From assembly GCA_907163225.1 (NCBI GenBank), contig OU015322.1, forward strand, positions 2,519,001 through 2,583,000: 64,000 nucleotides of DNA. Reading direction: 5' to 3'. Shown here one piece after another: positions 2,057 to 6,919 of this stretch (its first letter is position 1; every line of letters begins with the position of its first letter). Under the pieces are notes generated by a model. The model had not been told where the DNA came from, searched no databases, and worked only from the letters and a program-made list of their open reading frames with translations. A program made the translations under genes and the position numbers. This DNA comes from an uncultured Rhodocyclaceae bacterium (GTDB taxonomy: Bacteria; Pseudomonadota; Gammaproteobacteria; Burkholderiales; Rhodocyclaceae).

Positions 2057-2431
2057 ATGGCAATTAGCAAAGAAGACATCCTGGAAGCCGTTGGCTCCCT
2101 GACCGTTATGGAACTGAATGACCTGGTTAAGGCATTCGAAGAAAAGTTCGGCGTTTCCGCTGCTGCAGTTGCAGTTGCTGGCCCGGCTGGCGGCGGTGCT
2201 GCCGCTGCCGCTGAAGAGCAGACCGAATTCACCGTTATGCTGACTGGCGCCGGTGATAAGAAGGTTGAAGTGATTAAGGTCGTCCGCGCCGTAACTGGTC
2301 TGGGTCTCAAGGAAGCCAAGGACTTGGTTGATGGTGCGCCCAAGGCCGTTAAGGAAGGTGTTTCCAAGGCTGATGCAGAAGCCCTCAAGAAGCAACTGGA
2401 AGACGCAGGCGCTAAGGTCGAAGTTAAGTAA
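2057..2431 (+). CDS. rplL: 50S ribosomal protein L7/L12
   Basis: This is the 124-residue stalk protein that recruits translational GTPases. Residues 1-30 form the dimerisation domain that binds L10, an Ala/Gly/Pro-rich hinge follows at about 38-53, and the C-terminal domain runs from F58 to K124 with the conserved [24 protein letters not shown] lies upstream of the ATG. The C-terminal domain is the reference for the similarity noted in rpoB about 1.5 kb downstream. Confidence 0.98.
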
Positions 2432-2638: not shown

Positions 2639-5600
2639 ATGACTTACTCCTTCACCGAGAAGAAACGCATCCGCAAGAGCTTCGCCAAGCGCGCTAGTGT
2701 GCTGGATGTCCCGTATTTGTTGGCGACCCAGCTGCAGTCTTTCAAAGATTTTTTGCAAGATGAAGTTGCCCCCGAGCGGCGAAAAAATGAAGGTTTGCAA
2801 GCTGCCTTCACGTCGATTTTTCCGATCGTTTCTCATTCAGGTAACGCTCGCCTGGAGTTTGTAAGCTATATGCTGGGTGAGCCGGCATTCGATGTCACTG
2901 AATGTCAACAGCGTGGTCTTACGTTTGCGTCATCGCTTCGGGCGAGAGTTCGTTTGGTCATCATGGATCGCGAGGCCCCTGATACCGTAAAGGAAGTCAA
3001 AGAGCAGGAAGTCTATATGGGCGAGATGCCTTTGATGACGACCAACGGCTCATTTGTAATAAATGGAACCGAGCGTGTAATCGTTTCCCAGTTGCATCGT
3101 TCTCCAGGCGTGTTCTTCGAGCACGATCGCGGCAAAACCCATAGTTCAGGCAAATTGCTGTTCTCCGCGCGTGTTATTCCTTATCGCGGCTCTTGGCTTG
3201 ATTTTGAATTTGATCCGAAGGACACCTTGTTTTTCCGTGTTGACCGTCGCCGAAAGATGCCGGTTACGACCCTGCTCAAGGCGATCGGAATGTCATCCGA
3301 GGAGATACTGTCGCAGTTCTTCGAGTTCGATACGTTCCTGCTTTCAAAGGACAAAATTGAATTTACGTTGGTTCCCGAGCGTTTGCGCGGTGAAGTGGCT
3401 CGATTTGATTTCGTCGCACCGGATGGCACGGTTATTGTGGCGAAAGACAAGCGGATCACTGCCAGGCACATCCGAGATATTGGATCCGCAGCTATTAAGC
3501 AGATCGCTGTTCCGGAAGAATTTTTGATTGGTCGTGTCATTGCCAAGAACACGATCGACAAGTCGACTGGCGAGGTGATTGCCAATGCCAACGATGAAAT
3601 TACCGAGACCTTGCTCGCTAAATTGCGAGAGTCTGAGATTTTCACGATTGAAACGCTCTACACAAATGAACTGGATCGCGGGTCGTTTATTTCGAATACC
3701 CTGCGTGCAGATGAAACCGCTACCCGCCAAGCTGCACGGGTAGCCATTTATCGCATGATGCGTCCGGGCGAACCGCCGACGGAAGAGGCTGTTGAAATTC
3801 TTTTCAACGGGTTGTTCTATTCGGATGAGCGCTATGATCTGTCCGGCGTAGGACGCATGAAATTCAATCGGCGTCTGACCCGTCCGGATGTCATCGAATA
3901 CAAATTGATGCTAAAAGGCTTGGCTTCCAAGGCTGAAGCTGCCTTGAAAAATCTTGCTGAAGCCTCCGGCTTTGCCTTTTCGGCGATACAGGATCTGGTT
4001 GGGTTGATGCCTTTCGGCGCGCGCGCCATGGTTGAAAACGTGACCTTGGCCGAAGCTGAAACGCTGGCTGCCAAAATCAAGCCACTCGGCGCAAATATAG
4101 AAGTACGCGAGCAATTGACACTGTCGCCGCGCGATATCGTTGAAGTGATCAAGATCCTCGTTGAGTTGCGCAATGGCCGTGGTGAAATTGATGACATCGA
4201 TCACTTGGGAAATCGCCGAGTTCGATCGGTTGGCGAATTGGCCGAAAATCAGTTCCGGGCCGGCCTCGTTCGTGTTGAGCGTGCAGTCAAGGAGCGTTTG
4301 TCGCAAGCTGAGTCTGACAATCTGATGCCGCATGACCTGATCAACGCAAAGCCGATCAGTGCTGCGATCAAAGAGTTTTTTGGCTCGAGTCAGCTGTCGC
4401 AGTTCATGGATCAAACCAACCCGCTTTCCGAGATTACACACAAGCGTCGTGTATCGGCTCTTGGGCCAGGCGGTCTGACCCGGGAGCGCGCCGGATTCGA
4501 AGTCCGAGACGTGCATCCGACCCACTACGGACGTGTTTGTCCAATCGAAACGCCGGAAGGCCCGAATATCGGTCTGATCAACTCTCTGGCTTTGTTCGCT
4601 CGCGTCAATAGCTATGGTTTCATTGAAACCGCTTACCGCAAGGTGGTCGATAGCAAGGTAACTGACCAGATCGAATATCTGTCAGCCATTGAGGAGGGTA
4701 ACTACGTTGTTGCTCAGGCCAACGCCTCGCTGGTTGACGGCCGTCTGTCCGATGACCTTGTTACTTGCCGTGAAAGAGGCGAAACCATTCTGGCCGAGCC
4801 GTCACGCGTTCAGTACATGGACGTGGCCCCGGGTCAGATCGTTTCCGTTGCAGCCTCGCTGATTCCGTTCCTTGAGCACGATGACGCGAACCGCGCCTTG
4901 ATGGGCGCCAACATGCAACGTCAGGCGGTTCCTTGTCTGCGTCCGGAAAAGCCGCTGGTAGGCACCGGCATTGAGCGTACTGTTGCGGTCGACTCCGGTA
5001 CGGCAGTGGTAGCTCTGCGCGGTGGCAAGGTTGACTATGTCGATGCGGGTCGTGTCGTGGTTCGCGTCAATGATGACGAAGCCATCGCTGGCGAAGTTGG
5101 CGTCGATATCTATAATTTGGTCAAGTACACCCGTTCGAACCAGAACACCAATATCAACCAGCGTCCGATGGTTCGAGTTGGTGACCACATCGCCAAGGGT
5201 GACGTGGTGGCCGATGGTGCCTCGACTGACAAGGGCGAACTGGCGCTGGGCCAAAACATGCTGATCGCCTTCATGCCTTGGAACGGCTACAACTTCGAAG
5301 ACTCGATTCTGATCTCCGAACGCGTTGTGGCCGAAGACCGTTACACCTCAATTCACATCGAGGAACTGACGGTTGTCGCTCGCGACACCAAGCTTGGTCC
5401 TGAAGAAATTACGCGTGATATCGCATCGCTGGGTGAGTCCCAACTTTCCAGGTTGGATGATTCCGGTATTGTCTATATTGGTGCTGAGGTTGAAGCCGCT
5501 GACGTCCTGGTTGGTAAGGTCACGCCCAAGGGTGAAACCCAGCTGACGCCGGAAGAAAAGCTTTTGCGTGCCATCTTCGGTGAAAAAGCTTCCGATGTTA

Positions 5601-6919
5601 AGGATACCTCACTGCGCGTACCATCCGGTATCGCCGGCACGGTCATCGACGTTCAAGTGTTTACCCGCGAAGGTATCGAGCGCGACAAGCGCGCCCAATC
5701 GATCATCGACGAGCATCTGCGGCATTACAAACTTGATCTCGCCGACCAGATGCGTATTGTAGAACGCGACGCTTTTGCTCGTGTCGAACGCCTGATCCTT
5801 GGCAAAAAGGCCAATGGCGGTCCGAAGAAGCTAGCCAAGGGTTCAGTGCTCGAGAAGGAGTATCTTGACGGCATGGATCCGCATCATTGGTTCGATATTC
5901 GCCTTGCCGACGATGAGGTCGCCCAGCAACTGGAGCAGGTCAAGGATGGTCTGGAGCAAGCTCGCAAGGACTTCGATATTGCTTTCGAAGGCAAGCGCAA
6001 GAAGCTGACTCAGGGCGACGAACTGCCGCCTGGCGTCCAGAAGATGGTCAAGGTCTACGTTGCTGTGAAGCGTCGTCTGCAGCCGGGTGACAAGATGGCC
6101 GGTCGTCACGGTAACAAGGGTGTTGTATCCCGCATCCTGCCGGTTGAAGACATGCCGCACATGGAAGATGGTAGCCCGGTTGATATCGTGCTGAACCCGC
6201 TGGGTGTGCCATCACGGATGAACGTTGGTCAGATTCTTGAGGTTCACCTCGGTCTTGCCGCCAAGGGTCTTGGTCATAAGATTGGCGCCATGTTGCGCGC
6301 CCAATCCAGCGCCAAGGAAGTCCGTGGTTTCCTCGACCAGATATACAACTCCAGCGGCAAGGCGGAAAATCTCGAAGAGTTGAACGACACTGAAGTCCTC
6401 GAGATGGCCGGCAACCTGACCAATGGCGTGCCGTTCGCAACGCCGGTGTTCGACGGTGCCAAGGAAGAGGAAATCAAGGCCATGCTGGCGATGGCGGGTA
6501 TGCCGTCCTCCGGTCAAATGACTCTGTTCGATGGCCGCACTGGTGAGGCATTTGAGCGTCAGGTGACGGTTGGCTACATGCACTACTTGAAGCTGCATCA
6601 CCTCGTTGACGACAAGATGCACGCCCGTTCGACCGGTCCGTACTCGCTGGTTACCCAGCAGCCGCTGGGTGGCAAGGCGCAGTTCGGTGGTCAGCGTTTC
6701 GGTGAAATGGAAGTGTGGGCGCTCGAAGCCTATGGCGCATCCTATGTGCTGCAGGAAATGCTGACCGTGAAGTCCGACGACGTGAATGGTCGTACCAAGG
6801 TGTACGAAAACATCGTCAAGGGCGAGCACAGGATCGATGCCGGCATGCCGGAGTCCTTCAATGTGCTGGTCAAGGAAATTCGTTCGCTGGCGATCGATAT
6901 CGATCTGGAACGTTACTGA
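2639..6919 (+). CDS. rpoB: DNA-directed RNA polymerase subunit beta
   Basis: At 1426 residues this is longer than E. coli RpoB (1342 aa). The catalytic-core motifs are intact: the rifampicin-pocket segment [12 protein letters not shown] followed by [14 protein letters not shown] with no classical resistance change, the [11 protein letters not shown] region, and the C-terminal [24 protein letters not shown] clamp-binding part. Much of the extra length is an insert between GRMKFNRRL and [19 protein letters not shown], described separately, which resembles the L7/L12 C-terminal domain. The ATG at 2639 has CGGAG upstream. rpoC follows after 21 nt. Confidence 0.98.
3899..4108 (+). other. L7/L12 C-terminal-domain-like insertion inside RpoB
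   Basis: RpoB residues 421-490 begin [11 protein letters not shown] and end PLGANIEVR. They align with L7/L12 residues 58-124 ([11 protein letters not shown] ... DAGAKVEVK) with one 3-residue gap; I count 21 identities in 67 aligned positions, including the shared DLV, the proline after it and the closing G-A-x-[IV]-E-V. The segment lies between the lobe sequence GRMKFNRR and the conserved [21 protein letters not shown], where E. coli has only about 20 residues. The homology is inferred from alignment by eye. Confidence 0.75.

Follow-up and report, generated by a model that had tools for sequence, protein, structure and literature searches.

A domain resembling the C-terminal domain of ribosomal protein L7/L12 inserted in the RNA polymerase beta subunit of one bacterial family

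The stretch of DNA analysed here (the window, 64,000 nucleotides) opens on a cluster of ribosomal protein and RNA polymerase genes in the usual bacterial order, namely rplK, rplA, rplJ, rplL, rpoB, rpoC, rpsL and rpsG. The names of rplL and rpoB are confirmed by Pfam, and rplK, rplA, rplJ, rpoC, rpsL and rpsG are named from the look of their sequences. The first 53 bases of the window resemble the end of nusG. The rpoB gene gives a single match in its own genome and encodes a beta subunit with about 71 residues that are absent from ordinary relatives; rplL lies directly upstream of it, as an earlier note on this DNA had stated. The features concerned are as follows, all on the + strand.

2057..2431, + strand: rplL, encoding ribosomal protein L7/L12; the gene upstream of rpoB, from which the domain likely came (Pfam; profile searches of the own genome and of the window).
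2228..2428, + strand: L7/L12 residues 58-124, the C-terminal domain to which the insert is homologous (Pfam).
2639..6919, + strand: rpoB, encoding the RNA polymerase beta subunit of 1426 amino acids, host of the insert (one open frame; Pfam Rpb2 domains).
3881..4126, + strand: region between the conserved block MKFNRR and a second conserved block of 17 residues, including the linkers that flank the domain (compared with uninterrupted relatives).
3896..4108, + strand: insert domain resembling the L7/L12 C-terminal domain; residues 420-490 of RpoB align to E53-K120 of L12 and have a predicted order of beta-alpha-alpha-beta-alpha-beta.
4085..4225, + strand: end of Rpb2 domain 2 at the insert end (PF04561, profile positions 145-190 of 190; Pfam).

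The additional residues stand between MKFNRR (residues 407-412) and a conserved stretch of 14 residues that starts at residue 494. From MKFN to DHLG, the segment counts 118 amino acids in the window's RpoB vs. 47 in the uninterrupted form, and the aligned blocks on the two sides of the site lie 75 residues apart, against 4 in 7xya, the best solved relative. The second aligned block begins at residue 419 of E. coli beta. These figures correct the earlier note, which had allowed E. coli some 20 residues at this place. Its placement of the domain at RpoB residues 421-490 (window 3899-4108) is confirmed, except that the alignment starts the domain one residue earlier, at E420. The insert falls inside Pfam Rpb2 domain 2, which we take to be the lobe of the beta subunit, and the last part of that domain resumes at residue 483. 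Being in frame, bordered by conserved blocks on both sides and missing from sister lineages, it has the characters of a lineage-specific insertion.

Regarding sequence relationship, the window's insert on its own matches the Pfam family of the L7/L12 C-terminal domain (PF00542) weakly, over profile positions 3-66 of 67 with an E-value of 0.0018 and 19.0 bits, i.e. under the Pfam cut-off of 25.9 for this family, and it was the pooling of relatives that made the case for homology. Used as a query against its whole own genome, where the three candidates of a loose first pass were scored, the insert returned two matches at E <= 10, namely itself and rplL, the latter at 4.4e-4 with 31% identity over positions 3-75 of 80. 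Two pooled sets were built, one of 37 inserts (the window's included, below 88% identity, with two further rows from Azospira, one a duplicate of a row already included) and a more diverse one of 68 of the 88 distinct inserts (below 90% identity); the 88 omit two nested forms (L165 and L166) and a locus in which no whole segment was found (L132). PF00542 matched 31/37 and 48/68 of these inserts at E <= 0.01, the best at 6e-7, and missed 20/68 in the second set. Among the 24,736 rival Pfam families, matches at the same threshold were restricted to MTH865 (two members), RasGAP (one) and Phage_TAC_11 (one), with a best value of 0.0062. At the looser E <= 10, PF00542 reached 36 of the 37 inserts, SPOR 16 and S11 15, the best values of the latter two being 0.013 and 0.029, respectively.

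Searches with hmmsearch against 177,635 PDB sequences led to the same protein. With the 37-insert profile, places 1-9 were all L7/L12 (3j9y at 7.5e-6, 1ctf at 8.5e-6) and the tenth was a designed repeat protein at 0.0021; with the 68-insert profile, places 1-7 were L7/L12 (best 2.9e-5), followed by the designed protein at 0.0035 and then by further L12, so that the designed repeat protein, at 0.002-0.004 with the insert profiles, outranks some L12. In the window, a profile of the 88 inserts run against the 496 open frames of at least 60 residues found RpoB itself and rplL (7.1e-9), the next best frame having an E-value of 2.5. Comparison of profiles by hhalign gave 95.1% probability for the insert against the L12 C-terminal domain over 70-71 columns, with 31% identity over 71 columns and one 3-residue gap, in line with the 21 identities in 67 and one 3-residue gap counted in the earlier note. 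The profile-profile score was 43.5, against a mean of 10.4 (sd 2.2, maximum 19.5) for shuffled columns, and none of 200 shuffles scored as high; for both hhalign and the shuffles, the L12 profile was drawn from rplL sequences picked by patterns that demand K70 and R73. A chance likeness of helices rich in A, E and L is rejected on the shuffles, on Pfam with its 24,736 rivals and on the PDB searches. The N-terminal part of L7/L12 (PF16320) is found in rplL and is not found in RpoB, the insert thus corresponding to the C-terminal domain alone. In a six-frame search of the 297 genomes of the family, the matches listed outside rpoB are rplL-like frames of 89-194 amino acids covering profile positions 4-80; among the matches listed, they occur also in genomes that have no insert, the rplL identity having been checked individually for part of them.

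AlphaFold2, supplied with the 37 inserts and with neither an L12 sequence nor a template, returned a model of mean pLDDT 95.8 in which strands and helices (E5-14, H19-29, H33-41, E48-54, H56-69, E71-79) are predicted to follow the L12 topology. In a Foldseek search of the PDB, L12 occupies ranks 1-6 (1ctf at 6.7e-4, TM 0.67/0.77, 28% identity). After L12 comes the adaptor ClpS (PF02617), with TM 0.77/0.79 at 8% identity; among the 50 Foldseek matches listed, the best ClpS have TM-scores of 0.73-0.77, other ClpS 0.58-0.76 and L12 0.60-0.69, and part of the Pseudomonas PBP3 is often matched (TM of about 0.62-0.71). The predicted fold is thus held in common with ClpS (TM up to 0.77), whereas no sequence relation to it was found: hhalign with the same insert query gave 1.3% for ClpS vs. 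95.1% for L12, which indicates that the sequence relation is to L12, and hmmsearch of the insert profile against ClpS proteins (24, identical ones counted once) gave no match. An origin from ClpS is rejected on these two results. That the insert would be no relative of L12 at all, only an unrelated or ClpS-like alpha/beta look-alike, finds some encouragement in the TM-scores, the best of which go to ClpS, and in a composition rich in A, E and L that favours chance helix matches (SPOR, S11, the designed protein), but is extremely unlikely given the hhalign values, the absence of any ClpS match to the insert profile, the identity in structural alignments (24-28% to L12 at ranks 1-4 vs. 8-14% to ClpS at ranks 7, 9, 10 and 12) and the 200 shuffles, none of which reaches the real L12 score. 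The model can be taken as support rather than proof, since L12 may have been among the solved proteins from which the predictor learned. Altogether, profile searches and the predicted fold support the homology of the insert to the L7/L12 C-terminal domain (PF00542; 1ctf), which it resembles over the full length and in the order of strands and helices. The earlier note had proposed this homology and had named as checks a profile search with PF00542, a structure prediction and a mapping of the insert across relatives; the first yields significant matches, the second a predicted L12 topology, and the third, given below, a single clade of the RpoB tree.

In the window's genus, an rpoB match was obtained in 30 of 35 genomes, and the insert is present in 27 of the 28 genus loci compared. 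The exception, genome G011 (locus L032), does not group with the genus on the RpoB tree, which makes a foreign contig a likelier explanation than loss of the insert. In the window's family, inferred from its named relatives to be the Rhodocyclaceae in the wide sense, the insert or a piece of it lies in the rpoB of 62 of the 297 genomes and in 16 of 68 genera, two nested cases included. Among 399 genomes sampled across the order, at least 8 carry it, all of them in the same family; among 398 sampled across the phylum, there was no match at E <= 1e-8 besides the window's own, although a strongly diverged form would escape this threshold. Azospira oryzae, Azonexus hydrophilus, Azonexus fungiphilus, Dechloromonas denitrificans, D. 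agitata and D. hortensis are among the named carriers; the insert occurs both in metagenome bins and in named isolates (D. denitrificans, D. agitata, Azonexus hydrophilus, Azospira oryzae). An assembly artefact is rejected, since the insert keeps the frame and recurs across many independent genomes, named isolates among them.

A tree was computed from the flanks of RpoB, with the insert excluded, for 75 of 203 rows (with a ceiling, for each genus and state, of two rows where the insert is of a long type and of three otherwise; rows with fewer than 300 residues after the insert, identical rows and insert rows of named records without a genus were omitted). It is of the 'quick' type, with SH-aLRT support only. 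A single branch (SH-aLRT 100) separates all 30 rows with the L12-like insert from the others, a single change is enough to account for it and, within the clade, these 75 rows contain no loss. The L12-like insert has one origin. As to its maintenance, the window was paired with ten members of its genus (ten of the 27 pairs that the genus loci allow): dN/dS in the insert was 0.01-0.11 in the seven pairs with a value, dS being saturated in the other three, and 0.01-0.04 in the flanks (328 codons), these ratios being rough because dS is near saturation. In nine of the ten pairs, dN is higher in the insert than in the flanks. Protein changes in the insert are clearly held down, and it is kept by selection.

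Duplication of the 3' end of rplL into rpoB had been put forward in the earlier note as the origin of the domain. The proposal is plausible, E. coli L12 scoring above those of Thermotoga, M. tuberculosis and Deinococcus in the PDB search with the 37-insert profile, and the adjacent rplL is most likely the source; at an identity of only about 30%, the donor cannot be fixed.

Comparison of individual residues with L12 (E. coli numbering) separates what was kept from what was changed. The translation-factor site of the L12 C-terminal domain comprises K65, V66, I69, K70, R73, K81, E82 and K84, and these residues are reported by Helgstrand et al. 2007 to bind translation factors. To obtain a reference blind to the C-terminal domain, rplL sequences were picked anew by their N-terminal 50 residues only, giving 105 hits, 76 of them distinct, and in all 76 the residues K65, V66, R73, K81, E82 and K84 are identical. 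Each of these six is replaced in at least 77 of the 88 inserts. At position 65, 62 inserts have A and 15 have R, and position 66 is E or D in 88/88; position 73 is A in 56 (R73 replaced in at least 78), position 81 is A, S or P in 71 (K81 replaced in at least 77) and position 82 is A in 53 (E82 replaced in at least 79), while at position 84, 80 inserts have Q or E and two retain K (K84 replaced in 86). As for the remainder, K70 is kept as K in 65/88, I69 has mostly become L or V, and D85 is kept as D in 58/88. The core positions 56, 58, 69, 72, 77, 86, 87, 103, 106 and 114 keep their character. The residue pattern thus shows that the surface on the first two helices, which serves L12 as its translation-factor site, was rebuilt in the insert. 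Helices 4 and 5 of the L12 C-terminal domain meet RF3, according to PMC3677378.

Other positions have become fixed. E53, K55, G90, E96, N97 and a Q at 122 are found in 88/88 inserts, R92 in 87, and E118 and R120 in 82 each. Of these, E53, E96 and E118 are usual in rplL as well; positions 92 and 120 are K there, and K55, G90, N97 and Q122 are new in the inserts relative to rplL. By strand alternation, positions 53, 55, 118 and 120 would face the open side of the sheet. The insert therefore differs from L7/L12 in sitting inside RpoB, without N-terminal dimerisation domain and hinge, in the replacement of the factor-site residues and in some newly fixed ones.

The reading that we favour, with a probability of roughly 0.6, is that a copy of the L12 C-terminal domain was gained once in domain 2 (lobe) of the beta subunit, in the ancestor of the Azonexus/Dechloromonas/Azospira branch, was kept by selection and has been remade into a lineage-specific docking or bracing module with a putative partner. 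Sequence, predicted fold, tree and substitution pattern support the capture, the single gain and the retention by selection. In this scheme, the domain would have been copied, likely from the adjacent rplL, into the beta lobe of the branch ancestor; with the surface of its first two helices rebuilt, it would no longer work as L12 does on the ribosome. It would stand on the lobe and, as both of its ends are predicted strands running into the lobe, it is probably held rather firmly. A conserved surface made of inherited residues (E53, E96, E118) and of changed or new ones (K55, G90, R92, N97, R120, Q122) would be displayed, of which the open sheet face and the G-x-R-A-x-x-E-N stretch would touch the lobe or a partner. 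The module may thereby brace the lobe or bind a putative, lineage-specific transcription partner. A docking or bracing module is in our ranking the likeliest role, a tolerated decoration comes next and recruitment of translation factors is unlikely.

What the insertion site accommodates in other lineages bears on the second of these. Besides the empty form (47 amino acids), there is one of 67 amino acids (20 more) and a second form of 118 amino acids, named here the SWQ type, in families f2, f11 (30 of 98 genomes) and f43 and in one genus of the window's family (f1). Its insert of 71 residues occupies the same site and makes a segment of exactly the length found with the L12-like form. In two genomes of genus g219 (L165 and L166), a further 74 residues are nested inside the L12-like insert and match residues 1040-1107 of the window's RpoB (37-38% identity, E-values of 2e-12 and 1e-11) and the RpoB of the same genome (34-40% identity). 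In these two genomes, part of the polymerase thus seems to have been duplicated into a different insertion. Residues 1040-1107 should, by E. coli numbering, belong to beta-i9. The insertion site is a hot spot. Since it tolerates additions, including an insert of the same length in other families, the case for a specific function of the L12-like insert is weakened. As an alternative, the domain may fold, leave the enzyme undisturbed and have no partner, selection keeping only the fold; this is consistent with the variety of additions at the site, with the faster change of the insert than of its flanks and with E. coli, in which deletion of beta-i4 or beta-i9 leads to minor growth defects, as stated in PMC2939025. 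We consider it possible, if on the unlikely side, as exposed-looking positions are fixed (K55, N97 and Q122 in all inserts, R92 in all but one), which would go beyond the need of a bare core, and no loss has occurred within the clade on the tree of 75 rows.

The SWQ type raises another alternative, in which both inserts would be one older, diverged insert, the L12 likeness being its better preserved end. The exactly equal segment length speaks in its favour, as do a profile score of 17.6 between the two types (shuffled mean 10.3, maximum 17.3, 0/200 as high) in an alignment of matching register over 32 columns, and a predicted beta-alpha-beta-alpha-beta order (E-H-E-H-E) in the SWQ model (pLDDT 77). 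On the other side, the SWQ type has no L12 match in Pfam, PDB or hhalign and no consistent family match, its profile against L12 itself is not above chance (44/200 shuffles as high), its model found no Foldseek match at E <= 0.001, the 50 matches listed containing no L12, and the two types occupy separate parts of the RpoB tree; a common insert is thus doubtful and, in our judgement, clearly unlikely. A source of the SWQ insert was looked for among the frames of the window and in eight genomes and was not found. A likeness to the archaeal TATA-binding protein (32 residues, whole-sequence E-value of 9.6e-5, best stretch 0.01) is taken for chance.

On the ribosome, L12 is present in several copies borne on a flexible hinge. 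An L12-like task for the insert, i.e. the recruitment of EF-Tu, EF-G, IF2 or RF3 or a contact with the ribosome that couples transcription to translation, would be in keeping with the homology and with the retention of K70 and D85 in many inserts, but it is very unlikely, with six site residues invariant in rplL and replaced in most inserts, and with one domain per beta subunit instead of the several hinge-borne copies of L12. The suggestion of the earlier note that an L12 surface for factor recruitment is displayed on the polymerase is not supported, the residues of that surface being invariant in rplL and replaced in the inserts.

Coming back to the docking or bracing module, the insert would be, to our knowledge, the first case of a ribosomal protein domain inside a subunit of a bacterial polymerase. 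The catalogue of Lane and Darst 2010, reportedly the main one for RNA polymerase insertions, lies outside the literature searched and may list the insertion without naming its fold; among the papers listed in the literature searches aimed at it, no description of an L12-like RpoB insert was found, and the insert is new as far as could be checked. Beta-i4 should lie within the first 417 residues of RpoB, and uL10 is a protein of the ribosomal stalk. The beta-i4 and BEAN insertions differ from the present one in where they come from: with this N-terminal stretch of 417 residues standing in for a BEAN profile, hhalign gave the insert 0.5%. The beta subunit of E. coli carries the insertion domains i4, i9 and i11, as set out in PMC2939025, and these, like BEAN and like the L12-like insert, are in-frame domains between conserved blocks that occur in one lineage only, the sisters being without them. 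In a 2024 survey (PMC11515920), most beta insertions are assigned to the one domain BEAN, insertion is inferred to have peaked in an early episode and to have dropped off steeply afterwards, the mechanism of insertion is found unclear and the gene neighbourhood is suggested as a possible contributor. The same survey places BEAN in bacterial RNA polymerase and in archaeal uL10 (PMC11515920), a precedent for one domain shared by the polymerase and a ribosomal stalk protein; the difference is that BEAN is another domain and lies deep in time, whereas the insert is the domain of a ribosomal protein encoded next door. The terms L12, betaproteobacter, Rhodocycl, ClpS, lobe and stalk are absent from the main text of this survey (PMC11515920), and the statement in the earlier note that it knew of no described polymerase with such a domain fits with this and with the papers listed in the searches.

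Most RNA polymerase insertion domains date far back and their origin is unclear; the L12-like insert has a recognisable likely donor in the next gene. It is confined to one family in the samples, the sisters have an empty site and a later duplication is nested in it, so that it would be younger than the insertions dated in PMC11515920 and bears on the claim, as published in that survey, that polymerase insertions tapered off after early evolution. We tentatively suggest, at somewhat less than even odds, that a domain of the ribosomal stalk was captured late by the RNA polymerase encoded beside it and was refitted to form a site on the beta lobe where a transcription partner peculiar to this branch would dock. 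The insert opens the origin and use of polymerase insertions to experiment in cultivable bacteria and, if this reading holds true, these bacteria would provide a directly testable case of insertions arising from neighbouring genes.

Besides the L12-like insert, the rpoB insertion site carries two further forms:

rpoB site of the L12-like insert: second insert type; loci L031, L041-L053, L055, L168-L187, L200
rpoB insert site: third form; loci L054, L056, L057, L059, L061, L062, L190, L192, L194-L196, L198, L199, L203, L205

The second type, in most cases with an S-W-Q motif, gives a segment (MKFN to DHLG) of 118 aa, exactly equal in length to the L12-like form, and no match to L12 was obtained in Pfam and PDB profile searches or among the 50 Foldseek hits listed for the predicted fold. 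It occurs in families f2, f11 and f43 and in one genus of f1, the family of the window, and its rows are scattered over the RpoB tree (flanks only, 75 rows), with 4 changes. As for the third form, encompassing six families of the order, the window's own among them, the 67-aa segment has 20 extra residues, which start with AYPE in most loci.

The Azonexus-type rpoB insert was found in bins named Desulfobulbus sp. (L081) and Comamonadaceae bacterium (L114), which look mislabelled since L081, the one of the two placed on the tree, adjoins an Azonexus there. Although genome G011 is assigned to the window's genus, the RpoB of its contig 31 (L032) lacks the insert and is placed elsewhere within the family, away from that genus; this is probably a foreign contig or, failing that, the result of a transfer.

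In genus g219, the L12-like insert itself (L165 in G620, L166 in G640) contains a nested 74-residue piece, matching in sequence another RpoB region, namely window residues 1040-1107. Judging from this match, one part of the polymerase appears to have been copied into a different insertion domain.
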